Positions 31,801 through 46,617 of a stretch of 46,617 nt of DNA are shown here, in pieces. The translations under genes and the position numbers were made by a program. The DNA comes from a virus. Position 1 is the first letter of the stretch, and each line of letters opens with the position of its first letter. The notes beneath the pieces were generated by a model. It worked only from the letters and a program-made list of their open reading frames with translations. It ran no database searches and was not told the origin of the DNA. The stretch is taken from positions 1 to 46,617 of IMG/VR virus record IMGVR_UViG_3300020179_000054. The stretch is one strand, 5' to 3'.

Positions 31801-32043
31801 CTTGCCATAAGAACAGCATTGATACAAGTTTCGTCTTTACCAAGACCAAACTTTATTGCAATAGATGAAGGATTGGGTGTTCTTGATCCAACAGTTATGG
31901 CAAACTTCTCTCTGTTCATGGAGTATTTGAAAACACAATTTGAGTTTGTGATACTTATATCACACATAGATAGTGTTCGTGACATGGTGGACAATCACAT
32001 TGAGATTAAAAAAGAAAACGGATTTTCTAAAATAGAGACATAA
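28864..32043 (+). CDS. single-chain MRE11-RAD50 (gp47-gp46) recombination nuclease
   Basis: A 1059-residue protein containing both subunits normally encoded separately. Residues about 10-370 are an MRE11/SbcD/gp47 phosphoesterase: ADVHIR (Asp22, His24), AGDIVH (Asp62), GNHD (96-99), LYHGPVD and GDIHKF (203-208). Residues about 385-1059 are RAD50/SbcC/gp46: Walker A GLFAPNASGKSS with Lys419, a long coiled coil, a zinc-hook CEFC (Cys733, Cys736), the signature LSSGMEKF (969-976) and Walker B FIAIDEGLGVLD (Asp1001, Glu1002). The complex resects DNA ends for recombination-dependent replication and host DNA breakdown. T4 has two genes (339 and 560 residues). The frame is continuous with no internal stop, so the fusion is visible directly. 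Confidence 0.93.
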   Translation: MLKETLWSGGLSRVDTILHIADVHIRNLKRHDEYRSVFKKLYDICESKVKENPNTIIYLAGDIVHAKTDMTPELVNMVTEFLDTLSRIAPTILIAGNHDCNLNNMSRMDALSPIVSMINGEMNELFYLKQTGVYSLENVDFFLNSVYENPKDFILANDVQSDRAKIVLYHGPVDRAATDAGVLMKHNDVKIEMFDGFDYGMFGDIHKFQYLDVDGKFAYAGSLIQQNYGEGLVHGIIEWDIKNKKSKFIEIENDWSYHTIDVENGKIKKLPTKWTKYNSIRLRISNTQHSEVNQIMTELKSLTNVIDIRTQHLVGSSNGNVQTKVNPIGKIRDVEYQNKLITNYVNDKFSVTDDILEKIRGINRNVNTKLSESDVVRNLIWKPISFEFENMFSYGKGNRIQLDGMNGIYGLFAPNASGKSSILDAIMFCLFDKCSRTFKAAQVLNNKKDNFQCKLHFMIGEKNFYIKRVATKEKKGNVKVNVDFWYEENGDLVSLNGEDRDGTNYAIRKYIGTYDDFVLTAMSLQGNNTNFVDKAQKDRKDLLAQFFDLNLFEELNSIATDEVKGLQALVKEFKKQDHSTKLADAIGIHKANTILLEETTDQKGYIEKKIEKLTVFISELNKKLIPIADNFSSKSVQSLLDKRYLLDRKSNDLINEIKSLEDELGDAKTSHEKYIGLSKEFDKETLMEKKERIDIVRNRITELEADLRSVKLKVQHCQDKIDNLKDHEYDPNCEFCVNNVFVKDAERAKSQIWGFEQDRDELNFELRNLNEEFTKNSPVYSELEKLHSLENSAFKYEKQIYSVEKQIFSAKEEQKRIHDEIGNIDIQIEKYKENEDAINQNNKIQSEIDELETEKNTLLKVELKKIDESILEYNGNVKVSEKVIDECEVSIQKLKDLEKEYEAYDYYLKAVNRNGVPYELISNALPSIQEETNNILANVVDFQVLFDTDGKSINTYIVYDDDRFWNLELSSGMEKFISSLAIRTALIQVSSLPRPNFIAIDEGLGVLDPTVMANFSLFMEYLKTQFEFVILISHIDSVRDMVDNHIEIKKENGFSKIET

Positions 32044-32054
32044 TTGAGAAATAG

Positions 32055-35000
32055 ATGATAAGACGAGAATTACAAAGTAAAAATTTGGGCAGAGTTCGTA
32101 CACGATTTGAAGATAAAACTTCAAATTCTCCTAATTTTATCAATGTAACTTCAAAACAAAATTTGATAAAATCTGGTAAAAATCATTTTACATATAAGCC
32201 AAATTTTAAATATCTATCATCAAACTTTCCAATTGAAATTGATATTGTTGCTAGTAATGGTAGAACAATTTATTATGAAAGTACAAATAAATTGGATGTT
32301 GATGGATCTAGAATTTTATCAATATACATATATGATATAAACCTTATTGGTGAAATTAGTATTATATTTGTTGGAACGGCATCCCATGATTTATCATTAA
32401 AAAGTCTTCCAAGGAACGACGTAGTTAGTAGAAATTTTAAGTACATCCATAGGATGAATTTAAATTCTTTTGAAAAAAATGACTCAAAAATTATATTTTC
32501 AAAAACCCCTTCATTTGATATAAAAGAAATTTCTTCTTATGTTATTGAAGAAAAATTTGATGACAAAAAATTAAAAAAATTAAGTGGAACTGGATCTTAT
32601 TCGTATAATGCAGATTCTGTTTCATTAATTGACGGTAAAAATGAATTCAAACCTGAAATGAAAGGTGGAACTGTATCCTTTCCTTTTCTATCAAAACTAA
32701 CATTTCCATCTGGATCTAGAGCATACGGTGATCAACCATTTAAAACTTCTGTTGCGGCATTCCGTGCTCCAGCAAGAATAACTCTTGAAGATAGAATGTT
32801 TGTAACCGCATCTTTCGGAAGAGATAGAGGTTTATTAAAACCAGTCACTTCTATACAACAGCAACACTATGTGATTGAATATAATGATAGTTCAAAACAA
32901 AGGGTAATAACGGAAAATCTTAAACCGTATGCTAAAATAGATATTACTAATTTAGATGTAGATACTGGTAAGGTAACAAGGGTAAAAGTTCATACGAAAA
33001 GTTCATTCCGCCCATCAAGTGAATTTGAATTGGCTTATGATGGTGAGGTTTATCCAAAAAATACATTAGTTGAGTCAAATAATAATATAATTGAAAATCC
33101 TTTGGGAGTTTTTGATAATAAATTGATATTGACAGTTTCGGGATCAACAACCACATCTTCAATTGATCCTGTTAATTATTGGAGAGTTGAAGCAATAAAC
33201 GGTGCTCCGGGTGCTACAAAAGTAACCAGTTCAAGGTTTATTCCAAATGGAATACAACTTGTTCCATCCATAGGATCTACTCTTTCTGGAAATCAAGAAC
33301 ATTTACTAATACAAACATCCAGTTATGCAACAACTTTTGTTGCAAATTCTGTTTACAATCTGTCATTTAATTATTCATTAGGTACACCGCAACAAGATAC
33401 TAGACCGCAAAAAATTGCAGTTTATATTGAAGGAAGTGCATTTGTAAATAATTCACCACACGGAAAGTATTTGGGTGATGTACCTGGAACTGGATCAAAT
33501 GGTGCTGTTGCTTTTAATTATTCAATTCCAATAGTTCCAAATTTTGGCGGTAACGGTGTATTAAAATTTTTAATGAGAGATAATGCAACAATATCCGATA
33601 TATCTATTAAAGAAAAATTAGATTTAGGGTTTTCACCTAGTAATACTATTCTATACGTTCCTATTAAAAATGTTCATAGAAATGAATATTTAGATTTTAA
33701 ATTTGAATTTTTTGATTTTACATCTAAACCCGCAGATAAAAGTTTCATCAAAACAGGAATTCCTTTTGTTGGCGGTAATCTATATGCAGCTGGTAATGAT
33801 ACCACAATAAATGGTGGTAGATTTACCGGTTCATTCAATGGCCAATTTACAGGAAATCTAACAGGTTCAGTAGCAGGAACATCAGGATATGCAATATCTG
33901 CATCTTATGCACACAATGCTACTACTATTACTGGTTCAAATGGAACCAACGGATCATCAGGTGAATCTGGTTCCCCTGGAGCAAATGGTACATCGGGAAC
34001 GAATGGATCATCCGGTGCTCAAGGTGCTCCCGGTGCTGGTGGTGCTAATGGATCAAACGGTTCATCCGGTTCGGATGGATCATCCGGAACAGGTGGCTCA
34101 TCTGGAAATAATGGTAGTTCTGGTGAAAGTGGATCCGGAGGTTCTTCCGGAACAAGTGGATCATCCGGATCAGATGGTTCATCTGGCCAATCTGGAACTG
34201 CCGGTTCTGGTGGCACATCTGGATCTTCTGGATCATCAGGATCTTCTGGATCATCAGGATCTTCTGGATCATCAGGATCTTCTGGATCATCTGGTGAAAC
34301 ATATGGTACATCTGGAACTTCGGGCACATCTGGAACAAGCGGTAGTTCTGGAGAAAATGGTTCTCAAGGTTCTACTGGTTCAGCTGGAACTTCAGGAACT
34401 TCTGGTACATCCGGTGAAACATTTGGTACATCGGGAACAACCGGTACATCTGGAACAACCGGTACATCAGGTTCTTCCGGTATAGATGGTACATCTGGAA
34501 CAACCGGTACATCAGGTTCTTCCGGTATAGATGGTACATCGGGAACAACAGGCACATCTGGAACAACCGGTACATCTGGAACAACCGGTACATCTGGTAC
34601 AACGGGTACTTCTGGTACATCCGGTGAAACATATGGGACATCTGGAAGTGGTGGAAGCTCTGGAACTTCTGGAACATCAGGATCAAGTGCATCATCTGGT
34701 ACATCTGGAACAACAGGTACATCTGGAACAACAGGCACATCTGGAACAACCGGTACATCTGGAACAACAGGCACATCTGGAACAACCGGTACATCTGGAA
34801 CAACAGGCACATCTGGAACAACCGGTACATCTGGAACAAGTGGTAGTACGGGTTCATCTGGATTTTCTGGTGATAAGTATACAACATCATCAAGCACTAG
34901 TAATACGATTGGAACTGGATCAAAAACATTTACAGTGGAAACTAATTTGTCTTTTATTGTAGGTCAAGTTATTATTATTGCATATGATTCTAATAATAAA

Positions 35001-37376
35001 ATGCTTGGTGTAGTTACTTCGTACAATAGTGGAAATGGTCAATTTGTAGTTAATATAGATGGAAGTGTTGGTAGTGGCACATATTCAACGTGGTCAATAT
35101 CTTTAGCTGGAGTAAATGGTTCATCTGGATCTTCAGGATCTTCAGGATCTTCTGGATTATCTGGTTCATCTGGATCATCAGGAACAGATGGATCATCTGG
35201 AACAAACGGACAAAATGGTACATCTGGAACAAACGGACAAAATGGTACATCTGGAACAAATGGTGTAAAAGGAGATACCGGTGATGCGGGCACATCCGGT
35301 ACATCTGGAACTGCTGGATCATCTGGTCAAACATATGGAACATCTGGAACTGCTGGATCATCTGGAATTGATGGTTCAGATGGTACATTTGGAACATCAG
35401 GAACAAATGGAACATCCGGAACAGCTGGATCATCTGGTATAAAAGGAGATACCGGTTCTGGTGGCACATCCGGATCATCCGGCGAAAATGGAACGTCTGG
35501 ATCATCTGGAACCACAGGCACATCCGGCGAAAATGGAACGTCTGGATCATCTGGTGAAAATGGAAGTTCTGGAACAAGTGGAGATCGTGGTACATCTGGA
35601 TCATCTGGAACCGGTGGAACATCCGGATCAAGTGGTATAAACGGTATTAATGGTACAAGTGGAAGTGGTGGTTCATCCGGTACGGATGGTACATTTGGGA
35701 CATCGGGATTATCTGGAACCAATGGCACATCTGGAACTAGTGGGATTCAGGGAATGCCTGGATCATCGGGAACATCTGCAACTTCTGGAACAAATGGAAC
35801 ATCAGGAACATCAGGTAGTGCGGGTTCGGATGGATCATCTGGATCTTCTGGTGTAAAGGGAGATACTGGTGTTCCGGGAACATCTGGAACTTCAGGAACT
35901 GCTGGTTCATCCGGATCAAATGGTGTGATGGGTCCTTCAGGAACATCGGGATCTTCCGGTGATTCTGGTTCTTCTGGAAGTAGTGGGACTACTGGAACTG
36001 CTGGTAGTTCTGGAACAAATGGAACTAGTGGGGGTCAGGGAATACCTGGAACATCGGGAACATCTGCAACTTCTGGAACAGATGGAACATCAGGAACATC
36101 AGGTAGTGCGGGTTCGGATGGATCATCTGGATCATCCGGTGGTAAAGGAGATACTGGTAATCCTGGAACATCAGGTTCTTCCGGTGAAAATGGTACATTT
36201 GGAACATCAGGAACAAATGGAACATCCGGAACAGCTGGTGCTTCTGGAACAAATGGAACTAGTGGAAATGCTGGAACAAGTGGATCTTCTGGACTTTTTG
36301 GTGGTAACAGTCAGAAATATATTTTTAATACAAATACTGATGATACTGATACTATTAATGGGAATTTAAAATTTAACAATGCAACATATTCTAATGTCAC
36401 ACAAATTTTTATAGACGATTTAAATTCTTCTGGCGTTGATATATCATCAACTTGGATTGCCTCATTAGATGATTCTACTAATTCTATTAGAGGAACAATT
36501 CGTATATTTAAGGAATATGATTCATCTACATTTGTAGTATTTAATATCACAACTAATAATATAACTGCTACGGGATATAAAAAAATAAATGTTTCTCATG
36601 TAGTTAGTTCTGGAACATTTGCTAATAGTGATAGTATAATAATAACATTTGCTCGGTCAGGTGATGGTGGAACTGGCGGTACATCTGGCAATACTGGTAC
36701 TGCTGGAACTTCTGGCTCAAACGGTAAAAATGGTACAGACGGATCATCCGGTAGTGCTGGTTCAGACGGATCATCGGGATCTTCTGGAGTGAGTGGAACA
36801 AACGGAACTTCTGGATCAAATGGTGTTTCAGGAACAGCAGGCACTTCAGGTACATCTGGAACAACAGGTACATCTGGAACAACAGGCACATCTGGAACAT
36901 CTGGTACTTCTGGAACAAGAGGAACATCTGGTACTTCTGGAGCAGGAGGTACTGGTGGAACTTCCGGTCAAGGTGGTACTGCTGGATCATCCGGTCAAGG
37001 TGGTACTGCTGGATCATCCGGTCAAACATTTGGTACATCTGGCTCTTCAGGTAGTGCTGGTGCTCAAGGATCTCCTGGAGTTCCAGGATCATCTGGTTCA
37101 GCAGGTTCATCTGGAATAAGTGGAACTACAAAAGATACAATTACAATCGGTGATGGAATATTAGATACATATGATGTTGTTCATACTGTAAACAGTACGG
37201 ATATTATGGTATCAGTTAGAGACATCGGTACAGACCAATTATTATATCCAATGGCTGCAGTAATTCCGGGAAATGTTACATCTTATACGGCAACCGTAAT
37301 AGATGCAGATACAGTTCAATTGGTATTTGGTGCAGCAGTTGATGTTAACCAATACAAAGTAATTATCATTGGATAA
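32055..37376 (+). CDS. giant collagen-like tail fibre with three Gly-Ser/Thr blocks
   Basis: A 1773-residue protein. Residues 1-600 are beta-rich, with an attachment-like start and a carbohydrate-binding-like region (about 340-530). FTGSFNGQFTGNLTGSVAGT then leads into collagen-like triplets Gly-X-Y with X and Y mainly Ser, Thr, Asn and Glu. The blocks span residues about 627-939, 1019-1413 and 1536-1690. The globular inserts differ: 940-1018 (KTFTVETNLSFIVGQVIIIA) and about 1416-1535 (KYIFNTNTDDTDTINGNLKF). The C-terminal domain (about 1692-1773) is a compact beta domain (DTITIGDGILDTYDVVHTVN), likely the tip or trimerisation knob. Few prolines occur, unlike animal collagen. The dense Ser/Thr content and the glycosyltransferases downstream make these blocks candidate O-glycosylation targets. 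Confidence 0.8.
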   Translation: MIRRELQSKNLGRVRTRFEDKTSNSPNFINVTSKQNLIKSGKNHFTYKPNFKYLSSNFPIEIDIVASNGRTIYYESTNKLDVDGSRILSIYIYDINLIGEISIIFVGTASHDLSLKSLPRNDVVSRNFKYIHRMNLNSFEKNDSKIIFSKTPSFDIKEISSYVIEEKFDDKKLKKLSGTGSYSYNADSVSLIDGKNEFKPEMKGGTVSFPFLSKLTFPSGSRAYGDQPFKTSVAAFRAPARITLEDRMFVTASFGRDRGLLKPVTSIQQQHYVIEYNDSSKQRVITENLKPYAKIDITNLDVDTGKVTRVKVHTKSSFRPSSEFELAYDGEVYPKNTLVESNNNIIENPLGVFDNKLILTVSGSTTTSSIDPVNYWRVEAINGAPGATKVTSSRFIPNGIQLVPSIGSTLSGNQEHLLIQTSSYATTFVANSVYNLSFNYSLGTPQQDTRPQKIAVYIEGSAFVNNSPHGKYLGDVPGTGSNGAVAFNYSIPIVPNFGGNGVLKFLMRDNATISDISIKEKLDLGFSPSNTILYVPIKNVHRNEYLDFKFEFFDFTSKPADKSFIKTGIPFVGGNLYAAGNDTTINGGRFTGSFNGQFTGNLTGSVAGTSGYAISASYAHNATTITGSNGTNGSSGESGSPGANGTSGTNGSSGAQGAPGAGGANGSNGSSGSDGSSGTGGSSGNNGSSGESGSGGSSGTSGSSGSDGSSGQSGTAGSGGTSGSSGSSGSSGSSGSSGSSGSSGSSGETYGTSGTSGTSGTSGSSGENGSQGSTGSAGTSGTSGTSGETFGTSGTTGTSGTTGTSGSSGIDGTSGTTGTSGSSGIDGTSGTTGTSGTTGTSGTTGTSGTTGTSGTSGETYGTSGSGGSSGTSGTSGSSASSGTSGTTGTSGTTGTSGTTGTSGTTGTSGTTGTSGTTGTSGTTGTSGTSGSTGSSGFSGDKYTTSSSTSNTIGTGSKTFTVETNLSFIVGQVIIIAYDSNNKMLGVVTSYNSGNGQFVVNIDGSVGSGTYSTWSISLAGVNGSSGSSGSSGSSGLSGSSGSSGTDGSSGTNGQNGTSGTNGQNGTSGTNGVKGDTGDAGTSGTSGTAGSSGQTYGTSGTAGSSGIDGSDGTFGTSGTNGTSGTAGSSGIKGDTGSGGTSGSSGENGTSGSSGTTGTSGENGTSGSSGENGSSGTSGDRGTSGSSGTGGTSGSSGINGINGTSGSGGSSGTDGTFGTSGLSGTNGTSGTSGIQGMPGSSGTSATSGTNGTSGTSGSAGSDGSSGSSGVKGDTGVPGTSGTSGTAGSSGSNGVMGPSGTSGSSGDSGSSGSSGTTGTAGSSGTNGTSGGQGIPGTSGTSATSGTDGTSGTSGSAGSDGSSGSSGGKGDTGNPGTSGSSGENGTFGTSGTNGTSGTAGASGTNGTSGNAGTSGSSGLFGGNSQKYIFNTNTDDTDTINGNLKFNNATYSNVTQIFIDDLNSSGVDISSTWIASLDDSTNSIRGTIRIFKEYDSSTFVVFNITTNNITATGYKKINVSHVVSSGTFANSDSIIITFARSGDGGTGGTSGNTGTAGTSGSNGKNGTDGSSGSAGSDGSSGSSGVSGTNGTSGSNGVSGTAGTSGTSGTTGTSGTTGTSGTSGTSGTRGTSGTSGAGGTGGTSGQGGTAGSSGQGGTAGSSGQTFGTSGSSGSAGAQGSPGVPGSSGSAGSSGISGTTKDTITIGDGILDTYDVVHTVNSTDIMVSVRDIGTDQLLYPMAAVIPGNVTSYTATVIDADTVQLVFGAAVDVNQYKVIIIG
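34221..34292 (+). repeat. 18-bp tandem repeat encoding GSSGSS
   Basis: Four near-identical units of GGATCTTCTGGATCATCA in tandem inside collagen-like block 1. The alternating use of TCT and TCA codons is preserved in every unit, indicating DNA-level duplication rather than only amino-acid selection. Confidence 0.9.
34699..34836 (+). repeat. 18-bp tandem repeats encoding GTTGTS
   Basis: Consecutive units of the form GGAACAACMGGYACATCT (alternating CAGGC/CCGGT variants). A related run lies at about 34435-34610. The alternation of two variants implies a 36-bp higher-order unit. Confidence 0.88.
35733..36178 (+). repeat. about 145-bp direct repeat, 288 bp offset, in collagen block 2
   Basis: The segment from 35733 (GGAACTAGTGGGATTCAGGG onward) recurs from 36021 at a constant offset of 288 bases with scattered substitutions. 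The same distinctive codons, including the rare GSATSG-type triplet and the GTGGTAAAGGAGATACTGG-like region, appear in both. This shows segmental duplication within the fibre gene. Confidence 0.8.
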
Positions 37377-37387
37377 AAAATCTTTTA

Positions 37388-37398
37388 CATATTTATAG
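37388..37398 (+). promoter_or_regulatory. candidate late promoter, CATATTTATAG
   Basis: This sequence lies 53 bases before the TTG start at 37441, in one of the few real intergenic gaps. No TTG element occurs at the usual -33 distance. Similar -33-less sites precede the other fibre genes, as expected for a gp55-type late sigma that needs only a -10 element. The reverse complement reads CTATAAATATG and contains the T4 late motif TATAAATA, but no gene lies on that strand. Confidence 0.4.
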
Positions 37399-37440
37399 TG
37401 AGAATGTATCAATACATACACACACTATGAGAGAGAATAA

Positions 37441-38940
37441 TTGCCAAGTTCACAAAGAGACCTAACCAATCTATTTGTTTCCGAGTCTTATTATAGATTA
37501 CTTCAAACGGATCCTGTTGATGACTCAACACTTCTTGACGGAACTGGATCTCTTGTTACTTTATTGGCTGTATCTGGAACCGTAGATGCTTACTATTTTA
37601 AGGGTGACGGTTCTCAATTAACCAATATCGGTGCGGCATCATTACCTAATGGTGTAGTATCATCATCTGTTCAAACCCTTTCACACCTTGTTGGGACAAA
37701 TGTAATATCAGGTTCTGCTCAAAGAGGAGTGCTTGGTCTTGCTACAACTGACTCACCAACATTTAGTAACTTAACTCTAACTGGTGATTTAACTGCTAGA
37801 CAGTTAATTATTTCATCATCGGTAATAAATGTAACCCAATCATTCAGTAGTGGTTCAAATATATTCGGAAATGATATATTGGACACACATCAATTTACCG
37901 GTTCGGTATTTATATCAGGATCCGTATATGGAACATTTGTTGGTGACGGTAGTGGATTGACAAATCTTGTTGCTGCTGGCACAATATCATCTTCACAACA
38001 AATACAAAACTTTGGATTTATTACTTCAAGTGTATGGAATGAAATTCTAAATAAACCAAGTGGAATTGTATCAAGTTCAGTTCAAGTATTGAGTGGAACT
38101 GGAATAGTATCATCTTCTACACAAAGAAGTTCTATTGGATTGGGAACAAATGATAATGTTGTATTTGGAAATATATCTGGTAGTAATTTAACAATAGATG
38201 GTAATGCATTTATTGATGGAACTCTTACTGCTAGAACTTATGTGGTATCGTCATCAATCGTTGATATACAATCAATTAAGGCATCCGGTTCAACTGCATT
38301 CGGTGACACAATAGATGATACTCACCAATTTACTGGTTCATTATTTTTAAGTGGTTCACTTACATCACAAGGAACAATTACTGCTCCACTTTTTAGTGGT
38401 GTATTTTCTGGTGTAATTTCATCTTCACAACAAATTCAAGATTTAGGATTTGTTACTGATGGTGAATTGGGTGGTAGCGTTTATTGGGATAATATACTCA
38501 ATAAACCAAGTGGTATAGTATCATCTTCTACACAAACACTTTCACATTTATTTGGAACAAACATTATTTCTGGATCAGGTCAAAGGGGTGTATTAGGTTT
38601 GGCAGAAAGTGATTCACCTAGATTTTCAACATTATATGCAACAAATGCAAATTTTGACGGAAACCTTTTAGTAGGCGGAACAATAACTGCAAGAACTTAT
38701 GTAATATCATCATCCGTAGTTAATTATCAAACACTTTTAATATCTGGATCAACAAAATTTGGTGATAGTTTAGATGATATTCACCAAATAACTGGATCTA
38801 TGAATATAACTGGTAGTCTAAACATAGATAGTATAAACGTAAATAGTAATTTTATATTACCCACAATAAGTGAACTTCCCATAATATATTCAACCGGAAG
38901 TTTAATAATTTCAGGAAGTAATCTATATTTATTCATATAA
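37441..38940 (+). CDS. modular tail fibre protein with three repeated Ser-rich modules
   Basis: A 499-residue protein with a TTG start; GAGAGAGAA lies just upstream and no in-frame ATG is near. Three related modules occur with pattern T-A-R ... SSS ... SGS ... FG(D/N) ... D(D/T)xHQ-(F/I)TGS: DLTARQLIISSSVI with DTHQFTGSVFISGS, GTLTARTYVVSSSIV with DDTHQFTGSLFLSGS, and GTITARTYVISSSVV with DDIHQITGSMNITGS. Linkers contain FVGDGSGLTNL and VVSSSVQTLSHLVGTNVISG. Such modules are common in fibres of marine T4-like phages. A fourth module of this type lies in the fibre at 45297. The C-terminus is short and hydrophobic (GSLIISGSNLYLFI). It is probably an extended fibre shaft. Confidence 0.72.
   Translation: MPSSQRDLTNLFVSESYYRLLQTDPVDDSTLLDGTGSLVTLLAVSGTVDAYYFKGDGSQLTNIGAASLPNGVVSSSVQTLSHLVGTNVISGSAQRGVLGLATTDSPTFSNLTLTGDLTARQLIISSSVINVTQSFSSGSNIFGNDILDTHQFTGSVFISGSVYGTFVGDGSGLTNLVAAGTISSSQQIQNFGFITSSVWNEILNKPSGIVSSSVQVLSGTGIVSSSTQRSSIGLGTNDNVVFGNISGSNLTIDGNAFIDGTLTARTYVVSSSIVDIQSIKASGSTAFGDTIDDTHQFTGSLFLSGSLTSQGTITAPLFSGVFSGVISSSQQIQDLGFVTDGELGGSVYWDNILNKPSGIVSSSTQTLSHLFGTNIISGSGQRGVLGLAESDSPRFSTLYATNANFDGNLLVGGTITARTYVISSSVVNYQTLLISGSTKFGDSLDDIHQITGSMNITGSLNIDSINVNSNFILPTISELPIIYSTGSLIISGSNLYLFI
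38924..38934 (+). promoter_or_regulatory. candidate late promoter, TATATTTATTC
   Basis: It lies within the last codons of the preceding fibre gene, 41 bases before the ATG at 38965. No TTTG is found 19-21 bases upstream. The motif and distance match those before 37441 and 45297. GGAG precedes the ATG. Confidence 0.35.
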
Positions 38941-38964
38941 ACAATATAATTTTTGGAGAATTAA

Positions 38965-40188
38965 ATGGCAACGTGGAAAAAAATCATAGTATCGGGTAGT
39001 GTAGCCGAATTAGCAGCGGTTAGCGCTTCGGTTGGTGTGTTAGTCGGTACTAATCAACAAATTCAACCAACACACGCAAATACCCGATTGACTGGTTCTT
39101 TCACGGGTTCATTCACAGGCGATGGTACTGGTTTAACAGGTGTTACTGCAACTGCAACATTTCCTTCAACTGCAAAAACAACACTTGCAGGTTCAGACAA
39201 ATTTTTTGTAAATGATGATGCCGGTGATGCAACAAGTGGTAATAAGAAAATTACATTATCAAATTTATTAACTGATATTGCGGGTGATGGTTTATCCGCA
39301 GTTGGTGGTGAAACACTAAATGTTAATTTTCCAAGTGGAACAGTTAGTGGTTCATCATTTAGTTCACCATCACAAGGCACGGTTCGTGCAACAATTAACG
39401 GTGTAAATACAGATGTTGATACCGGTCTACAAACAGGAGACAGTCCAACATTTGTTGATGTAACTTTAACAGGCGATATTACTGTTGGTGGCAATGATAT
39501 TAAGATGAATGGTGGCACAACTGCCCTCACATTTAGTGGAACAGGTGATGTAGAAGTTGCTGGTGATTTGAAAGTAACCGGTAATGATATTAAGATGAAT
39601 GGTGGCACAACTGCCCTCACATTTAGTGGAACAGGTGATGTAGAAGTTGCTGGTGATTTGAAAGTAACCGGTAATGATATTAAGATGAATGGTGGCACAA
39701 CTGCCCTCACATTTAGTGGAACAGGTGATGTAGAAGTTGCTGGTGATTTGAAAGTAACCGGTAATGATATTAAATCAAGTGGTGGAACAACTGCAATTAC
39801 TCTTAATGGTGCTAATGTTACTGTTGCAGGTGATTTAACTGTTAATGGAACAACAACAACACTGGATACAACAAATCTTTTAGTTGAAGACCAATTCGCA
39901 TTATTTGCTTCTGGTTCTGACGGAAATACTGATGGTGGTATAATTGTTCAACAAGGTTCAACAACCGGCTATGCTTTGGGAGTTGATGCCAGTGCAGACC
40001 GATGGGCACTTCAAAACAATTTGGCACCAAGTGGTGTTTCTAGTATTACACCTGATGCATTTATGGGTGTGATACAACAATGGACAACTGGTAATCAACC
40101 TCCAGCTCCACAATACGGCGGTGCAACTGCATACGGAACAATCGGTGTTGAAATTGACACCAAAGAGGTGTACATTTGGGTAGGATAA
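38965..40188 (+). CDS. tail fibre protein with perfect 30-residue tandem repeats
   Basis: A 407-residue protein. Its N-terminus MATWKKIIVSGSVAELAAVS is closely similar to that of the fibre at 45297 (MPNWKKIVVSGSQAHLSSVT), suggesting a shared virion-attachment peptide. Residues 30-55 hold TGSFTGSFTGDGTGLTGVT. Residues about 65-130 contain FFVNDDAGDATSGNKKITLS, a segment I know from marine phage fibres. Three identical 30-residue repeats (NDIKMNGGTTALTFSGTGDV and the ten residues after) follow at about 177-266. The C-terminus (LLVEDQFALFASGSDGNTDG, then VEIDTKEVYIWVG) is a common fibre end. A GGAG ribosome site is present. It is probably a fibre shaft with beta-helical repeats. Confidence 0.75.
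   Translation: MATWKKIIVSGSVAELAAVSASVGVLVGTNQQIQPTHANTRLTGSFTGSFTGDGTGLTGVTATATFPSTAKTTLAGSDKFFVNDDAGDATSGNKKITLSNLLTDIAGDGLSAVGGETLNVNFPSGTVSGSSFSSPSQGTVRATINGVNTDVDTGLQTGDSPTFVDVTLTGDITVGGNDIKMNGGTTALTFSGTGDVEVAGDLKVTGNDIKMNGGTTALTFSGTGDVEVAGDLKVTGNDIKMNGGTTALTFSGTGDVEVAGDLKVTGNDIKSSGGTTAITLNGANVTVAGDLTVNGTTTTLDTTNLLVEDQFALFASGSDGNTDGGIIVQQGSTTGYALGVDASADRWALQNNLAPSGVSSITPDAFMGVIQQWTTGNQPPAPQYGGATAYGTIGVEIDTKEVYIWVG
39493..39773 (+). repeat. perfect 90-bp tandem repeat, three copies plus 11 bp
   Basis: Units 39493-39582, 39583-39672 and 39673-39762 appear identical base for base, followed by the first 11 bases of a fourth. The preceding junction differs by one base (GGC versus GGT). The length of 90 bp keeps the frame, so unit number can change without disrupting the gene. 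Confidence 0.95.
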
Positions 40189-40194
40189 TTTTGC

Positions 40195-40225
40195 TTTGAT
40201 ATATTATTAAAAATTGTTATATTTG
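40195..40225 (+). promoter_or_regulatory. Bacteroidota-type promoter before the glycosylation block
   Basis: TTTG at 40195-40198, a 19-base spacer and TATATTTG at 40218-40225 form an exact match to the Bacteroidota consensus. It is the best such site in the window. It sits just after the fibre stop and drives the 40252 gene and probably both glycosyltransferase genes. Confidence 0.7.
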
Positions 40226-40251
40226 TTATGAAAAAAATTATAGGTTATATT

Positions 40252-40428
40252 ATGGCTTTGATTAAAAAAGAAAATAACGAAAATAGTCCGATACCTCCAA
40301 TTCCTCCTTTTTCAAAGGGGGAGTTGGAGTTTTTATTAAAATTGATTTCGGAATGCACATTTCAAGGGAAAGAAGTGCAAGTTGTATATGACCTTGTATA
40401 CAAACTTCAGCAGTTATATGTAAAATAA
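40252..40428 (+). CDS. small conserved phage protein containing a terminator-like hairpin
   Basis: A 58-residue protein. An upstream ATG at 40228 is only three bases past the -7 element and would precede the transcript start, so I choose 40252. The C-terminal two thirds, FSKGELEFLLKLISECTFQG then VQVVYDLVYKLQQLYVK, is a two-helix family that I recognise as common in marine T4-like phages; its role is unknown. The N-terminal part is a basic, Pro-rich stretch (NSPIPPIPPFSKGE) coded by a strong DNA inverted repeat. It is followed 15 bases later by the first glycosyltransferase gene. Confidence 0.68.
   Translation: MALIKKENNENSPIPPIPPFSKGELEFLLKLISECTFQGKEVQVVYDLVYKLQQLYVK
40295..40334 (+). terminator. 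strong hairpin with T-run inside the 40252 gene
   Basis: Bases 40295-40310 can pair with 40314-40329: a 16-bp stem with two G-U pairs, a three-base loop (TTC), and then TTTTT at 40330-40334. This is the classical form of an intrinsic terminator, with C/T-rich and G-rich arms (CTCCTTT / AAAGGGGGAG), and is unlike the surrounding sequence. It lies within codons of a short gene and upstream of both glycosyltransferases, so it could attenuate them. Confidence 0.55.
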
Positions 40429-40442
40429 TAAACAGGTGTTTT

Positions 40443-43148
40443 GTGAAAAAAGTTTTGTTTGTGGTGCCACATCTTTCCACAGGTGGTTTGCCGCAATATA
40501 CTCTATCTCTTATTAAAAAAATAAAAGATAAAGTTGATGTATATTGTATTGAATACTCAATGTTATCTCCTACGTTTATTGTTCAAAGAAATCAAATAAT
40601 AGAATTATTGGGTGATAAATTTTATTGTTTAGAAGAAAATAAACAATACTTGAATGATTTAATTCATAAAATAAATCCAGATATTATACATCTTCAAGAA
40701 ATGCCAGAATTTTTTATGGCAAACGAAGTTGCTGATATTTTATATTCAGTTGATAGAACATATAAAATAGTTGAAACGTCACATGACTCATCTTTTAATT
40801 CTTCAAGTAAAAGATTTTTTCCAGATTATTTTGCACTAATATCGGAATATCAAAGAAAAGAGTTTTCAAAATTAAATATACCTATAACTCTTGTTGAATA
40901 CGATATTGAGTACAAAAATCGTGCAAACAGAGAAGAAATCCTAAAAAAATTAGGATTAGATCCAAACATAAAACATATTCTTAATGTTGGTCTTTTTACT
41001 CCAAGAAAAAATCAAGCGGAAATATTTGAATATGCTAAAAAAATGATAGACCAACCTGTTCAATTTCATTTTTTAGGAAATCAGGCAGATAACTTTTATA
41101 GTTATTGGGAACCTCTGTTGAGAGATAAACCCAACAACGTAAAGATTTGGGGTGAAAGGAATGATGTTGATATTTTTTATTCTTGTATGGATTTATTTTT
41201 ATTTACATCAAGAGGAACAGACAATGATAAAGAAACCAGTCCGCTTGTAATCAGAGAAGCAATTGGACATCAAATACCATCTTTAATATACAATTTGCCG
41301 GTTTATTTGGGAATGTATGACAAATATGATAACATAACATATTTGGATTTCAAAAATCTTGAAAAAAATATAAATTTGATAAAAGAAAAATTGAATTTAT
41401 TGGATGAAAAAAATTATTTACATCCATTTGAAACATTATACGGTCCTGTTGATTTGAGTTCAATAGATTACCCAAACACTATGTATGAGGCGATGGTATA
41501 TCATGGTGAAGCAGCTGCTATGTGGTGGGGTGCATTCATTCACAAGGAACTTGACCGTAGTGATGTTAAAATAGAACATGGTGATATTTTTGTTGATTTA
41601 GGTGCAAACATAGGTGTATCTTCATATTATGCACTAAAACACGGTGCAAAAAAAGTTTATTGTTTTGAACCAGACCAAAAAGTTTTATCATTACTTGAAA
41701 AAAATATAAAAAGAGATAAGGAAACATTTAATTATGCTATTTCAAATGAAAGAAGTGAACTAGAACTATACCATTGGCCATATAATGATATACATAAAGG
41801 ACCGAAATATACCGTTAAATGTATAAAATTAGAAGATGTTTTTGATTTAGTAAAAGAGCCCGTAATTGACTATTTGAAAATAGATATTGAAGGATTTGAA
41901 GAAAACATTTTTGATGATATTTCACAAGATACTATACATCGTGTTAAAAAAATGTTTATAGAGTATCATAATGGTGAAAATACACAATCTTTTGTTGAAA
42001 AGATACAAAAGTTGGGATTTAGTGTTAGAGTAGAATATGGTAATGGTCAAAACTACATATATTGTTACAATAAAAATTTTAAGATTATGGATGAAAAGAG
42101 TGTTGCAATTACAATATCAACTTATTCAAAAAGTCAATTTATTAAAGAAAAAACAATAGAGTGTGTAAATGCTATAAAAAAATACACGGAATATCCTGTA
42201 ATATGCACCGATCATAATTCTGCAGAAAAATCAATAATAGATTGCGTAGACTATTATTTTTACGATGCAAATAATGTTTTAACAACTCATACATTTTACG
42301 ATACATGGTGGATGGAAACTTATGATGCTAAAATTTTGGTAAAATTAAGACCAAGTAAAAATAATGGTTATCATGGTTCTGCAGTTCATCAAAATATTTT
42401 TGCCGGTATTTCATTGGCAAATATGTTAAAATATGATTATGTTGTTTTTATGAATTTTGATGTAATACTTGACGATATTGACTCGAAACGTTTGATAGAA
42501 TGTGTTAATAGGTTAAAAAATAGTGATAAAAGTGCTTTCTTTTTGATGACAAATGAAATGGAAGGTAATTGTTTAAAAACAGTATTTTTTATTACAAAAC
42601 CAAAATTTTATTTGGATAAAATGGAAAATATCACAAATGTGCAAGAATATGAAAATTTGGTAATAAAACATCAATCCGAGTCAAATGGTTTAGAAAATCT
42701 ATATTACAATATTCTTAAAAATAACTTGGATGAAATTATTATTGAAAATATGTCTGAATTGGATTTTTTCAATTCATCCTATACAAAAAATACAGAAAAG
42801 AAAAGTTTTACAAGTAGTCAAACTGAATATTCTGCTATTTTACCTATTGAAAATTCAAAGGATGACAATAATGTTGTTTTATTTTACAAATCACAAAATG
42901 ATTTAGCATTCGACTATAAATGGGAAGTTTATTCACAGAACAATCTAATAGTGGAACATTTTATACCCGCATTTAAAAAAGAAATCAATAGTAATGAAGT
43001 ATTTACTGATACTAAATTTTTCAAATGTGAAATTGATAAACAATATGATATATTTTTAAAAATTGTTAATGATGATAGCGTGGTAAAGAAATTTACAGAT
43101 ATTACCATAGAACAGATTAAAGAACAAGGAACATTTCAATTTAAATAA
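40443..43148 (+). CDS. three-domain glycosyltransferase: GT4, FkbM methyltransferase, GT-A-like
   Basis: A 901-residue protein with GTG start and AGG nearby. Residues 1-330 are a GT4/GT-B glycosyltransferase: VVPHLSTGGLPQYTLSL at the N-terminus, NVGLFTPRKN (G183-N190) and the E-x7-E motif ETSPLVIRE (264-272). Residues about 345-550 are an FkbM-type SAM-dependent methyltransferase: IFVDLGANIGVSSYYA (Asp385), VYCFEPDQ, and YLKIDIEGFEENIF (481-486). Residues about 556-770 resemble a GT-A-like fold with VAITISTYSK and FMNFDVILDD (Asp673, Asp677). The last 120 residues are unassigned and beta-rich. FkbM enzymes O-methylate sugars, so the protein may add a sugar and cap it. Nine bases separate it from the next transferase. 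Likely acceptors are the nearby Ser/Thr-rich fibres, though LPS modification is an alternative. Confidence 0.82.
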   Translation: MKKVLFVVPHLSTGGLPQYTLSLIKKIKDKVDVYCIEYSMLSPTFIVQRNQIIELLGDKFYCLEENKQYLNDLIHKINPDIIHLQEMPEFFMANEVADILYSVDRTYKIVETSHDSSFNSSSKRFFPDYFALISEYQRKEFSKLNIPITLVEYDIEYKNRANREEILKKLGLDPNIKHILNVGLFTPRKNQAEIFEYAKKMIDQPVQFHFLGNQADNFYSYWEPLLRDKPNNVKIWGERNDVDIFYSCMDLFLFTSRGTDNDKETSPLVIREAIGHQIPSLIYNLPVYLGMYDKYDNITYLDFKNLEKNINLIKEKLNLLDEKNYLHPFETLYGPVDLSSIDYPNTMYEAMVYHGEAAAMWWGAFIHKELDRSDVKIEHGDIFVDLGANIGVSSYYALKHGAKKVYCFEPDQKVLSLLEKNIKRDKETFNYAISNERSELELYHWPYNDIHKGPKYTVKCIKLEDVFDLVKEPVIDYLKIDIEGFEENIFDDISQDTIHRVKKMFIEYHNGENTQSFVEKIQKLGFSVRVEYGNGQNYIYCYNKNFKIMDEKSVAITISTYSKSQFIKEKTIECVNAIKKYTEYPVICTDHNSAEKSIIDCVDYYFYDANNVLTTHTFYDTWWMETYDAKILVKLRPSKNNGYHGSAVHQNIFAGISLANMLKYDYVVFMNFDVILDDIDSKRLIECVNRLKNSDKSAFFLMTNEMEGNCLKTVFFITKPKFYLDKMENITNVQEYENLVIKHQSESNGLENLYYNILKNNLDEIIIENMSELDFFNSSYTKNTEKKSFTSSQTEYSAILPIENSKDDNNVVLFYKSQNDLAFDYKWEVYSQNNLIVEHFIPAFKKEINSNEVFTDTKFFKCEIDKQYDIFLKIVNDDSVVKKFTDITIEQIKEQGTFQFK

Positions 43149-43156
43149 AAGGTAAT

Positions 43157-45250
43157 TTGATGAAAATTGCACAAATACATTTAGGTCTACTTCCGATTCC
43201 ACCAAACGGATGGGGTGCTGTTGAAAAAATAATTTGGGAATATAAACTTGAATTAGAACAACTTGGACATCAAGTAGATATACCATATATCAATGAAATA
43301 AAAAAAGGTGAGTATGATATAGTTCATGTTCATACCTGGAACCAAGCACTTGAATTATATCAAATGGGAATACCTTACATATACACCTGCCATGACCACC
43401 ATGTATTTCTTGCTGGAAAAGACACACAATTATACAAGGATAATTTATTGGCAATGAAATGTTCTGAATTATCAATAGTTCCTGCAAAGTATCTAATAGA
43501 ATATTTTGATGGTATTCCAATTTATCTTGAACATGGAGTTAGATTAGAGAATTATATTATCGGCAAAAAAAATAAGAACATAAAACTTTTATGCGTTGGT
43601 AACAACGGTTTAATACATGATACTAATTTTGACAGAAAAGGATTTAGTTATGCAATTCAGTCTGCTAATAATTTGGAATTAGATATTACGATAGTTGGAC
43701 CAACAAAATCAAATAAAAATTATTTTGATAATAACAAGAATTTAATTACCGATAATGTAAATATACTTTATGATTTGAGTGATACTGAATTAAGTTCAGT
43801 TTATGAAACGCATGATATTTTAGTCCACGCAACATCTATTGAAGCGGGACATCCACCACTAACGATATTAGAGGCAGCAGCAGCTGGATTACCTATAATT
43901 ACTACTGATTGTTCTGGCGATTTACATACATCGAAAGTTAAGAGGGAAGTTAAAAATGTTGTTACTGGTATACAAAATGTGATAAATAATTACGAAGAAG
44001 AACAACAAAAAACAATAGATAGTGTTAATAACTTTCATTGGAAAAATGTTGTAGAAAAACTTAATATTATTTATCACGAAACAATTTCAAGAACAATGAA
44101 AAGTTCGGTATTACACATATATGATAAAGTTAGAAAAAACATAAATAATAATAACATCGAAATAAACTTTATAGATGGTGCCAGTGTAACTATTAATGGA
44201 CAACAACCGATTAATTATGATGTTAAATTTATAGACAATGATACCAATTTTGTATTGTATCAAACTACAATACAAAATAATAGTTGGGCAAAACCAAATA
44301 GAAAATGGTTTACAAATTGGAAAGTAATTGTAACCGAACAAGATGGTAAAACCATTGAACATATTATTGATTTAAAAAATAAAAATGTTTTGATAGAATT
44401 TGACTCAAAATCAATTGGTGATACTATTGCATGGATACCGTATATTCAAAAATTTAAAGATAAACATAATTGTAAATTATATGTTTTTACTTTTCATAAT
44501 GAATTATTTAAAGAAAAATATCCAGAAATTGAATTTGTAAATGATACAAATTCCATAAAAAATTTATACGCATCATATAAAATTGGTTGGTATTTTGAAC
44601 TTGATACCGGATATAATCTTAACATGAATAAAAACGAAACTCATAAAATTCCATTACAACAAACTATTACTGATACTATTGGTTTAGAATATGAAGAAAT
44701 TAAACCAAAAATAAAAACATTACCAAAACACAACACGGATAAACCTTATATTTGTATTGCAACAAACTCTACTGCTCAGGCAAAGTATTGGAACAATCCA
44801 ACTGGTTGGCAAGAGTTAGTTGATTATGTAAAATCAAAAGAATATGATGTTTATTTATTATCCAAAGAGGAAGACGGATACATGGGAAACAAACAACCCG
44901 ATGGTGTTATTAAAATAAAAGATAAGACACTTGAAGAAATAGGATCTATATTACAGAGTGCTAAATGTTTTGTTGGTATTGGCAGTGGACTTTCTTGGTA
45001 TTCTTGGGCACTTAACGTTCCAACCATTTTGGTAAGTGGATTTTCTGAACCATTAAATGAAATGAAATCTGATGTAATTCGTATAATAAACGAAGATGTT
45101 TGTCATGGTTGTTTTGCTAAACATCTTTTTGATAGAGGAGATTGGAATTGGTGTCCTGAACATAAAGGAACTGAAAGACAATTTGAGTGCACTAAAACAA
45201 TAACATTTGATATGATAAAACCTCACATAGAAAAGTTATTAAAAGCATAA
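43157..45250 (+). CDS. bifunctional glycosyltransferase: GT4 fused to TibC-type O-heptosyltransferase
   Basis: A 697-residue protein. Residues 1-320 are a GT4 domain (QIHLGLLPIPPNGWGAVEKI, CVGNNG, EAGHPPLTILEAAAAGLPII with Glu229 and Glu239). Residues about 336-697 match the autotransporter strand-loop-strand O-heptosyltransferase group (TibC/BAHT, GT9): INFIDGASVTI, LIEFDSKSIGDTIAWIPYI (Asp416-Asp422), TAQAKYWNNPTGWQEL (542-553), KEEDGYMGN, FVGIGSGLSWYSWAL, and FSEPLNEM. The family's iron-binding cysteines are present: CHGC (649, 652), WCPEH (666) and FEC (678). TibC-type enzymes transfer heptose to Ser of surface beta-repeat proteins. The next gene encodes a Ser/Thr-rich collagen-like fibre, the obvious candidate substrate. 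The donor sugar cannot be told from sequence alone. Confidence 0.88.
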   Translation: MMKIAQIHLGLLPIPPNGWGAVEKIIWEYKLELEQLGHQVDIPYINEIKKGEYDIVHVHTWNQALELYQMGIPYIYTCHDHHVFLAGKDTQLYKDNLLAMKCSELSIVPAKYLIEYFDGIPIYLEHGVRLENYIIGKKNKNIKLLCVGNNGLIHDTNFDRKGFSYAIQSANNLELDITIVGPTKSNKNYFDNNKNLITDNVNILYDLSDTELSSVYETHDILVHATSIEAGHPPLTILEAAAAGLPIITTDCSGDLHTSKVKREVKNVVTGIQNVINNYEEEQQKTIDSVNNFHWKNVVEKLNIIYHETISRTMKSSVLHIYDKVRKNINNNNIEINFIDGASVTINGQQPINYDVKFIDNDTNFVLYQTTIQNNSWAKPNRKWFTNWKVIVTEQDGKTIEHIIDLKNKNVLIEFDSKSIGDTIAWIPYIQKFKDKHNCKLYVFTFHNELFKEKYPEIEFVNDTNSIKNLYASYKIGWYFELDTGYNLNMNKNETHKIPLQQTITDTIGLEYEEIKPKIKTLPKHNTDKPYICIATNSTAQAKYWNNPTGWQELVDYVKSKEYDVYLLSKEEDGYMGNKQPDGVIKIKDKTLEEIGSILQSAKCFVGIGSGLSWYSWALNVPTILVSGFSEPLNEMKSDVIRIINEDVCHGCFAKHLFDRGDWNWCPEHKGTERQFECTKTITFDMIKPHIEKLLKA

Positions 45251-45255
45251 AATCA

Positions 45256-45266
45256 CATATTTATAC
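45256..45266 (+). promoter_or_regulatory. candidate late promoter, CATATTTATAC
   Basis: It starts six bases after the stop of the glycosyltransferase and 41 bases before the TTG start at 45297. No -33 TTG element is present. It is almost identical to the site at 37388 before another fibre gene, which supports a shared late-promoter motif. Confidence 0.4.
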
Positions 45267-45296
45267 AAGTATTCATATAAATCGTGGAGTTACCGA

Positions 45297-46617
45297 TTGC
45301 CCAATTGGAAAAAAATAGTAGTAAGTGGAAGTCAGGCACACCTATCATCAGTAACAGCATCAAATGGATCTATAATATCTGGTTCACTTGGTGTAACAGG
45401 TTCCATAGATATAATTGGTAATTTGATAATAAACGGAACAAGTTATACCACAGCACCATCTGGAATAAATGGAACAGCAGGAACATCTGGTGCAACTGGT
45501 CCCATTGGTGCTCCTGGTGCTTCAGGTTCATCTGGTTCATCTGGTTCAAGTGGAACAAGCGGAACTTCTGGTGCTGCTGGTCATACTGGTGCCGCTGGTT
45601 CATCTGGAACATCTGGTTCAAGTGGTTCAAGTGGTTCAAGTGGAACTTCTGGAACTTCTGGTTCATCAGGAACATCCGGAACTTCAGGAACATCTGGTGC
45701 CGCTGGTGCTTCAGGTTCATCTGGAACTTCTGGTTCATCTGGAACATCTGGTGCCGCTGGTGCTTCAGGTTCATCTGGAACTTCTGGTTCATCTGGAACA
45801 TCTGGTGCCGCTGGTGCTTCAGGTTCATCTGGAACATCTGGATCAAGTGGAACTTCTGGTTCATCGGGATCGTCAGGAACACCAGGATCAAGTGGAACGT
45901 CCGGAACAGGATTTAATACTATAAACAGTCCTGCTGCTAATAGATTATTAGTTAGTGACGGAACAACAAATGCTGCTACTGCTTCTGCTAATTTAACTTT
46001 TAACGGAACAACATTAACAGTAACAGGCAATGCTGTAGTAAACGGAACGCTAACTGCTAGAGAATTTAAGTCAGAATTGGTATCTGCTTCAATAATATTT
46101 CAAAGTGGTTCAAATAAATTTGGTGATACACAAGATGACACACATCAAGTAACCGGTTCTATGTCTATAACTGGTTCGTTACTGATACCACGATATGCAA
46201 GTAATCCAACGGCAGTTCTTGGTGGAATTTATTACAACACCGGTGATAACAACATATACCGTTCAAACGGTTCAACTTGGTCTTCTGCGGCTGGTTCAAG
46301 TGGAACTTCTGGTTCATCTGGAACATCTGGTTCATCAGGAACATCTGGTGCCGCTGGTGCCGCTGGTTCATCTGGAACATCTGGTTCATCAGGAACATCT
46401 GGTGCCGCTGGTGCTTCAGGTTCATCGGGAACATCAGGAACTTCTGGTTCATCAGGAACATCTGGTGCCACTGGTGCTTCAGGTTCATCTGGAACATCTG
46501 GTGCCGCTGGTGCTTCAGGTTCATCGGGAACATCAGGAACTTCTGGTTCATCAGGAACATCTGGTGCCACTGGTGCTTCAGGTTCATCTGGAACATCTGG
46601 TGCCGCTGGTGCTTCAG
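45297..46617 (+). CDS. collagen-like tail fibre, 3' end outside window
   Basis: The frame is open from TTG 45297 to the window edge (440 codons). GGAG at 45286-45289 is seven bases upstream. The N-terminus MPNWKKIVVSGSQAHLSSVT parallels the fibre at 38965. Residues about 57-203 are Gly-X-Y triplets (GTAGTSGATGPIGAPGASG onward, mainly GSS, GTS and GAA). Residues about 205-320 form a globular part with NTINSPAANRLLVSDGTTNA, then GTLTAREFKSELVSASIIFQ and DTQDDTHQVTGSMSITGSLL, the same module found three times in the 37441 fibre. A second collagen-like block starts near residue 326 and runs off the window. Both blocks are rich in Ser/Thr and follow the O-heptosyltransferase gene directly. Confidence 0.78.
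   Translation, partial: MPNWKKIVVSGSQAHLSSVTASNGSIISGSLGVTGSIDIIGNLIINGTSYTTAPSGINGTAGTSGATGPIGAPGASGSSGSSGSSGTSGTSGAAGHTGAAGSSGTSGSSGSSGSSGTSGTSGSSGTSGTSGTSGAAGASGSSGTSGSSGTSGAAGASGSSGTSGSSGTSGAAGASGSSGTSGSSGTSGSSGSSGTPGSSGTSGTGFNTINSPAANRLLVSDGTTNAATASANLTFNGTTLTVTGNAVVNGTLTAREFKSELVSASIIFQSGSNKFGDTQDDTHQVTGSMSITGSLLIPRYASNPTAVLGGIYYNTGDNNIYRSNGSTWSSAAGSSGTSGSSGTSGSSGTSGAAGAAGSSGTSGSSGTSGAAGASGSSGTSGTSGSSGTSGATGASGSSGTSGAAGASGSSGTSGTSGSSGTSGATGASGSSGTSGAAGAS
45696..45857 (+). repeat. 54-bp tandem repeat in collagen-like fibre
   Basis: Units start at 45696, 45750 and 45804 (GGTGCCGCTGGTGCTTCAGG onward), giving an 18-residue period GAAGASGSSGTSGSSGTS. The first two copies appear identical; the third diverges toward its end. 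Confidence 0.9.
46401..46617 (+). repeat. 99-bp tandem repeat running off the window
   Basis: The unit starting at 46401 recurs at 46500 and a third begins near 46599. The period of 99 bases (33 residues) combines GAAGASGSSGTSGTSG and a GATGASG variant. The repeat continues at least to the window end. Confidence 0.88.

Follow-up and report, generated by a model that had tools for sequence, protein, structure and literature searches.

A TibC-type glycosyltransferase gene among collagen-like Ser/Thr genes of a phage: a candidate system for O-glycosylation of its own fibres

Described glycosylation systems and the window locus

Bacterial autotransporter heptosyltransferases (BAHT) of the TibC/AAH type (TIGR04414; PDB 4RAP and 4RB4) act on proteins, and passages of the TibC study assign roles to residues Asp-110, Thr-226, Lys-230, Trp-305 and Arg-286 (PMC4358343). 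A virus record of 46,617 bases, IMGVR_UViG_3300020179_000054, analysed here over its whole length and called the window, encodes a 697-residue protein in which a TibC-type domain is fused to a glycosyltransferase domain of family GT4, close to genes for collagen-like proteins rich in Ser and Thr. As judged from sequence comparisons, it is probable that this TibC-type enzyme serves to glycosylate the collagen-like fibres of the phage itself; the fuller proposal, in which Pro-poor fibres are O-heptosylated and shuffling partner domains extend the sugar or methylate it, is the reading that we favour and consider fairly probable. The window enzyme is like the TibC/AAH enzymes in its predicted full-length fold with an N-terminal beta-barrel, its catalytic Asp, its donor-site Thr, Lys and Trp and its four-Cys iron finger. 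The phage enzymes differ in the loss of Arg-286, in their frequent fusion with GT4 or other domains, and in their partner, a protein with Gly-(Thr/Ser)-Ser tracts in place of an AIDA/TibA autotransporter.

Other described systems share single features with this locus. Bacillus BclA carries O-glycans on Thr; its triplets are Pro-rich and its sugar pathway is a different one, unlike the Pro-poor tracts of the window. The likeness lies in a collagen-like repeat that bears sugar (passages of PMC8968730), glycosylation in the window being proposed from the genes. Mimivirus L230 is likewise encoded by a virus and glycosylates collagen-like peptides of that virus, but it is GLT25D1-like, glucosylates hydroxylysine and belongs to a virus of amoebae (excerpts of PMC9614988). 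Mycobacteriophages bear glycans on virion proteins, as proposed here (Freeman et al. 2023, cited in PMC12619734), on capsid and tail tube subunits, and the relevant passages of PMC12619734 mention neither TibC nor collagen-like acceptors. In Riftia cuticle collagen, an animal protein and an analogy only, galactosylated Thr is said to aid thermal stability (excerpt of PMC10141479). Among the literature matches listed, none described phages that pair a TibC-type enzyme with collagen-like fibres. Within these matches the novelty claimed in an initial annotation of the window stands for this combination; it does not extend to virion glycosylation as such, which is known in mycobacteriophages.

The TibC-type domain

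The 697-residue protein (43157..45250, + strand; the natural start is probably the ATG at 43160 rather than 43157, preceded by aaaaggtaa) comprises a GT4 domain (residues 1-311) and a TibC-type O-heptosyltransferase domain (residues 331-697; 44147..45247). The latter belongs to TIGR04414 (hepto_Aah_TibC), with 295.6 bits against a cut-off of 200 and residues 331-693 aligned to positions 9-373 of 374, as the initial annotation had supposed in speaking of TibC-like genes. Pfam reports GT4 and GT9, the GT9 part coinciding with the TIGR04414 region, and Pfam TibC_1st had no match at 0.001 or better in the window. Sequence searches against solved structures returned TibC entries only at E values up to 0.1 (closest PDB 4rap, E 1.8e-62). 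In the AlphaFold model (pLDDT 86), residues 331-697 fit TibC (4rb4) with Z 37.1 and a root-mean-square deviation of 2.5 over 354 aligned residues; the alignment runs over TibC residues 21-389, so that the N-terminal beta-barrel and the GT-B fold are both predicted.

Equivalents of the catalytic base Asp-110 (Asp 422), the phosphate contacts Thr-226 and Lys-230 (Thr 539 and Lys 543), Trp-305 (Trp 614) and the iron-finger cysteines (Cys 649, 652, 666 and 678) are all present in the window protein. These positions are kept in 86 to 88 of 88 aligned phage rows, near-copies included, with the four-Cys finger complete in 86 and gapped in two. At the position of the adenine-contacting Arg-286, the window has Ile. 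In the tree, phage and methanotroph rows separated from the classical rows with TibC in 100/100, in a bootstrap that is not fully settled. By its sequence, the enzyme is a member of the BAHT family and probably works like a BAHT; we do not file it as a classical BAHT because it lacks the adenine contact and an autotransporter partner, the neighbours of the gene being collagen-like or fibre-like.

The LPS (lipopolysaccharide) heptosyltransferase families did not accept the protein: TIGR02193 gave 30.3 of 185.3 bits and NF008204 24.8 of 437 bits, and a WaaC/RfaC-type identity was rejected as all such models stayed far under threshold (at most 30.3 bits against cut-offs of at least 170). These scores speak against the view that the transferases act on the surface of the host (LPS, capsule), for instance to exclude other phages, and lie near fibre genes through a shared host-recognition island. 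Such a view follows the published readings of pelagimyophage islands, where tail fibres and glycosyltransferases are mixed and the latter are taken as LPS enzymes (passages of PMC7029224), and of a huge-phage heptosyltransferase (excerpt of PMC10747093), and the GT4 domains found here do resemble many sugar transferases. The TibC family, however, fits over nearly the whole length, iron finger included, and two results given below, on a phage GT4 gene and on a chromosomal gene pair of Methylobacter luteus, point the same way. We regard host-surface modification as improbable.

Pairing of TibC-type genes with Ser/Thr tracts

The gene at 32055..37376 (+) encodes a collagen-like protein of 1773 residues with 259 Gly-X-X triplets in runs of at least four, of which 225 have Ser or Thr at X or Y; 1000 residue shuffles reached a maximum of 16 such triplets. 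The interrupted tract spans residues 627-1692 (33933..37130), with tandem repeats at 34140-37025. A second collagen-like gene (45297..46617, +), cut by the window end after 440 visible residues, has 85 such triplets over 45297-46616, 72 of them with Ser or Thr, and follows the TibC-type gene after 46 bp. Both belong to the collagen family (PF01391, 311 and 128 bits; cut-off 27.2) and are the proposed acceptors. The hundreds of Gly-Ser/Thr triplets initially ascribed to each of the two genes were found in the first and not in the visible part of the second. Tail fibre PHROG labels of the collagen genes were rejected as evidence of fibre type, the matches falling inside the repeats. In the pooled phage tracts (7034 triplets), the pattern is Gly-(Thr/Ser)-Ser, with Thr (48%) or Ser (37.5%) at X and Ser (82%) at Y. 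Pro occupies 0.2% of X and 0.5% of Y (0.6% and 2.7% in the window), compared with 19-31% of X in bacterial collagens (passages of PMC8968730). With so little Pro, the stability of these tracts without modification is doubtful.

A search with the 697-residue protein yielded 80 viral TibC loci, the pattern seeds of this single query under-sampling distant TibC genes, and a locus was counted as having a tract when an open reading frame (ORF) in the fetched stretch held at least 20 Gly-X-X triplets. Tracts were present in 59 of the 80 TibC loci as against 0/49 and 0/80 loci of the GT4 and baseplate genes of cyanophage Bellamy (isolated from seawater), near-copies included and the counts not dereplicated. 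Loci of the terminase of phage Mel-JY01, which are of the same lineage, had a tract in 3/59. With stretches of at least 12 kb the counts were 55/68 for TibC, 0/34 for GT4, 0/32 for baseplate and 2/21 for terminase. When TibC domains were clustered, a tract accompanied 35 of 52 clusters at 90% identity, 27 of 38 at 70% and 14 of 20 at 60%. Among contigs or records of at least 100 kb, some of them related and near-copies included, a tract lay near TibC in 16/17, a figure that none of 1,000,000 simulations attained when three tracts were placed at random in each and related contigs were treated as independent. In 36 selected whole records (33 contigs from the loci and three named), TibC exceeded its cut-off in all 36 and Collagen did so in 32; the remaining four are the 636-kb phage LR756504 and three contigs in which TibC is at the edge.

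The reciprocal search started from the repeats. Each repeat pattern found at least 120 stretches, of which 80 were listed, and only contigs of at least 20 kb were taken: 50 for Gly-[ST]-[ST] (L396, L397, L399, L400 and L401 were left out; L numbers are our locus handles) and all 49 listed for the control pattern Gly-[DEAPQH]-[KE]. Among these listed matches, to which all counts of this search refer, TibC exceeded its cut-off on 16/50 Ser/Thr-repeat contigs (17/50 when a match below the cut-off is counted) and on 0/49 control contigs (Fisher 4e-6). Where the stretch held at least 20 triplets the figures were 15/41 and 0/24. One contig counted as Ser/Thr with TibC (L325) has a longest tract that is mostly non-Ser/Thr in its stretch. 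The initial annotation would have been contradicted by transferases occurring independently of Ser/Thr-rich fibres; mostly they do not (59/80 versus 0/129 control loci; 16/50 versus 0/49), and its proposal that the phage glycosylates its own fibres thereby gains support from comparative genomics, not from chemistry. The lack of a nearby tract in all 49 loci of the Bellamy GT4 gene also argues against host-surface modification.

Two loci showed further arrangements. At L013:12199-16140 the gene directly following TibC encodes 1313 residues with a tail sheath domain at the C-terminal end, and no collagen gene is nearby. At L076:9872-11939 there are two tandem TibC-type ORFs 7 bp apart; a second TibC frame on this contig was read through two TAA stops in the genome search.

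The pairing also occurs in bacteria. A scan of named genomes showed that in Methylobacter luteus and relatives a TibC of the phage type adjoins a Gly-Thr-Ser repeat protein that looks secreted, a signal peptide being recognized by eye. In M. luteus, the tract gene and TibC are 40 bp apart among Mfd, CsiV, PhoH, CorC and QueA-like genes; a prophage origin of the pair was rejected, these neighbours being ordinary chromosomal genes, and the arrangement argues against the host-recognition island. Of 201 genomes of the M. luteus family, 12 hold 13 TibC genes over the cut-off, and 12 loci were fetched. The four classical loci (654-663 bits, Arg-286) had no tract neighbour (0/4), and an AIDA autotransporter stalk adjoined three of the four; the eight phage-type loci (303-327 bits, with Ile, Val or Met at position 286) had a tract neighbour in seven (Fisher 0.010 versus classical). 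Four of these eight come from the genomes that prompted the search, and among the four new ones the tract was present in 3/4. Two further searches, one over 369 genomes of the class and one over 399 genomes from the family to which a Polaromonas bin belongs, added two loci. L617 (298 bits, from the gammaproteobacterial class) keeps Arg-286 and has a 112-residue lipoprotein-like Gly-Thr-Ser protein 108 bp away (L617:2081-2419), whereas L618 (616 bits, Arg-286) has no tract neighbour. The N-terminus of the L618 neighbour looks like an autotransporter signal. Including the Polaromonas locus (L087/L619), a tract stands beside phage-type TibC in 9/10 loci and beside classical TibC in 0/5; of the five phage-type loci that did not prompt the test, four have one. 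A strict link between Arg-286 loss and a tract partner was rejected, as L617 has the tract protein and keeps Arg; with L618 and the other bacterial loci it indicates that the score class tracks the partner better than Arg-286 does. A contig filed as a Bacteroidetes bin (L089) was left out of the bacterial count: its FkbM and TibC fusions of the phage type, together with a Ser/Thr collagen-like ORF, make it a probable phage contig.

Repeats and transferases might also gather in variable regions, or be joined in assembly, with no function in their pairing. Pelagimyophage fibre regions are indeed hypervariable (passages of PMC7029224), and most Ser/Thr-tract contigs among the matches listed have no TibC on the same contig. 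Chance would nevertheless have to account for TibC on none of the 49 non-Ser/Thr collagen contigs, for the 16/17 large contigs that lie beyond all simulations (kinship ignored) and for the bacterial contrast of 9/10 with 0/5, and we hold it to be very unlikely.

Donor sugar, partner domains and proposed function

Genes for making an ADP-heptose lie near TibC in some relatives. HldE domains II and I abut TibC in L052/L053, and domain II does so in L055. In L044 both HldE halves follow about 0.4 kb on from TibC, in L074 they are 1.3-2 kb off on the opposite strand, and in L045 HldD-like and HldE I genes follow TibC within 1-2 kb. In searches that did not cover GmhA, GmhB and HldD as families in whole records, the window gave no HldE match (phmmer, HldE halves included) and its nearest relatives no HldE II; in the window phage and in Mel-JY01 the donor would be that of the host. 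Large proteins near TibC at L055:12011-14776 and L082:11243-13162 have an N-terminal nucleotidyltransferase-like domain (weak matches to NMN adenylyltransferase models).

Several observations weigh against heptosylation of virion fibres by these enzymes. The Arg-286 position, needed in TibC, is Ile, Val, Leu, Thr or Ala in 83 of the 88 phage rows (near-copies included; five have Arg), and the nucleotide preference may therefore differ from that of TibC. HldE and HldD are the best models for the donor genes and yet stay under the curated cut-offs, and the whole Mel-JY01 record has no HldE II. Among the donor-gene loci only L044 has a tract of at least 20 triplets (276; L052/L053 have 8, L074 has 7, L045 and L055 none), so that a single stretch seldom holds evidence for both donor and tract. 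The habitats of control and TibC loci are unmatched, phage LR756504 carries TibC with no collagen match, and 26 of the 41 Ser/Thr contigs with at least 20 triplets among the matches listed have no TibC over the cut-off; these may partly be fragments, and many tracts may be independent of TibC. The location of the collagen-like proteins as virion fibres is putative, and the FkbM and C-terminal parts of the partner protein described below are poorly modelled.

The first of these points suggests a variant in which the fibres are indeed glycosylated but start from a sugar other than heptose, the lost adenine contact marking another nucleotide sugar and the family name misleading. The replacements of Arg-286, by Ile, Val or Met in the methanotroph type, and the lack of HldE matches in the window and of HldE II in Mel-JY01 fit this variant. 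It has to face the HldE halves or HldD near TibC in several phages, and the retention of Thr-226, Lys-230 and Trp-305. The TibC domains of L044 (Leu) and of L052 and L055 (Val) also lack Arg-286, and its loss alone is therefore no argument against ADP-heptose. We consider a sugar other than heptose possible but unlikely.

The window also contains identified protease, baseplate wedge and primase genes, and a fused SbcC/SbcD-like gene (gp46/47; 28864..32043, +; PHROG 77 and 100) whose place in relatives anchors the synteny. In the 3' third it is followed by the 1773-residue collagen-like gene, two Ser/Thr-rich fibre-like genes, the 901-residue GT4/FkbM gene (40443..43148, +), the 697-residue GT4/GT9 gene and the second collagen-like gene. 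The ORFs lie where the initial annotation placed them, as do its two multidomain glycosyltransferases within 40443-45250 (GT4 with FkbM; GT4 with TibC-type). Within its run of fibre genes, those at 37441..38940 (+, 499 residues) and 38965..40188 (+, 407 residues), conserved neighbours in relatives, have no collagen repeats and no match in the PHROG search, and so take the label of fibre from context only. Within the 407-residue gene, a 90-bp unit is repeated 3.4 times at 98% identity (39493-39794), a recent in-frame duplication. The transferase genes showed ratios of non-synonymous to synonymous substitution (dN/dS) of 0.12-0.23 in four pairs, three including the window and one between two relatives, and are therefore constrained.

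The 901-residue protein has, according to Pfam, NCBIfam and PHROG, a GT4 domain (residues 1-321), an FkbM methyltransferase domain (383-528), a further domain with no Pfam name (about 551-735, possibly GT-A-like) and an unassigned C-terminal region. Residues K189, E264 and E272 are invariant across 19 rows. A sequence search with the protein found only two close loci. The GT4 part of its predicted model reached Z 23.6 against HepE, and the fold matches listed were of GT4 type only, the other parts being barely tested. These included T4 AGT structures (Z about 19.6), which would suit transferases that glycosylate phage DNA. T4 AGT, however, ranks under many other transferases in the fold list, TibC acts on proteins (passages of PMC4358343) and the genes sit among fibre-like genes, which makes DNA glycosylation extremely improbable.

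The window lineage repeats the order of gp46/47, collagen gene, two fibre genes, GT4 protein, TibC protein and next fibre gene. In L006 a Ser/Thr-rich gene (L006:6573-7304) with a Laminin_G_3 lectin-like domain (only L006 was tested for it) separates the fibre genes from the transferases; a gene at this position also occurs in L002, L003 and L031 and is missing from the window. In the compared relatives, which were picked through TibC or gp46/47, TibC is constant and its partner domains shuffle: GT4 with FkbM and further domains in the window, no FkbM in L002/L131, TibC alone in L033 and L064, and a further domain with TibC in L040-L042. Since FkbM is missing in L002/L131, it was rejected as a core step and methylation of the glycan by FkbM, as initially suggested, is a weaker claim than stated there; we take it as variable trimming rather than core. 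Mel-JY01 (PP395634, L082), isolated on Microcystis elabens, combines GT4 and TibC in one 1227-residue protein that was deposited as 'methyltransferase FkbM', whereas Pfam shows no FkbM match. Its record begins with an unannotated collagen-like ORF of 185 triplets, open at the record start (L082:2-3052, +); in its place the record gives three hypothetical genes, two on the minus strand and a short one on the plus strand. Its 'cytidylyltransferase-like' gene gave weak nucleotidyltransferase matches only, and none of the literature matches listed names this phage.

In the process that we propose, the TibC-type domain would act in the cytoplasm while virions are assembled and would move a heptose, most likely from an ADP-heptose, onto Ser or Thr of the Gly-(Thr/Ser)-Ser tracts. 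This first sugar would be extended by GT4 and other transferase domains that are fused to the TibC-type domain or lie next to it, FkbM, where present, would O-methylate the glycan, and the sugar may help to hold the Pro-poor fibre shaft in shape. A wider and more tentative extension, which we think possible though doubtful, is that the phage-type enzymes form a TibC subfamily of their own, which scores about 300 bits against TIGR04414, mostly lacks Arg-286 and recognizes Gly-(Thr/Ser)-Ser as its code, and that tract and TibC make up a portable module of phages and bacteria. In phages, heptose would then replace the stabilization of the shaft by Pro or hydroxyproline; some lineages would make the ADP-heptose themselves, and GT4 and FkbM domains, being exchangeable, would diversify the outer glycan.

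Glycosylation of the phage's own fibres by a TibC-type enzyme gives a testable function to a recurrent class of glycosyltransferases in phages, which have often been taken to modify LPS or DNA, and offers a reason why phages have Ser/Thr collagen-like proteins that are poor in Pro and reach about 3,200 residues. For bacterial TibC-type enzymes it predicts an acceptor sequence that is new, and both Mel-JY01, an isolate with both genes, and Methylobacter luteus are direct test cases. If the proposal is true, these phages would carry a dense glycan coat on their fibres, which may affect adsorption, stability and recognition.

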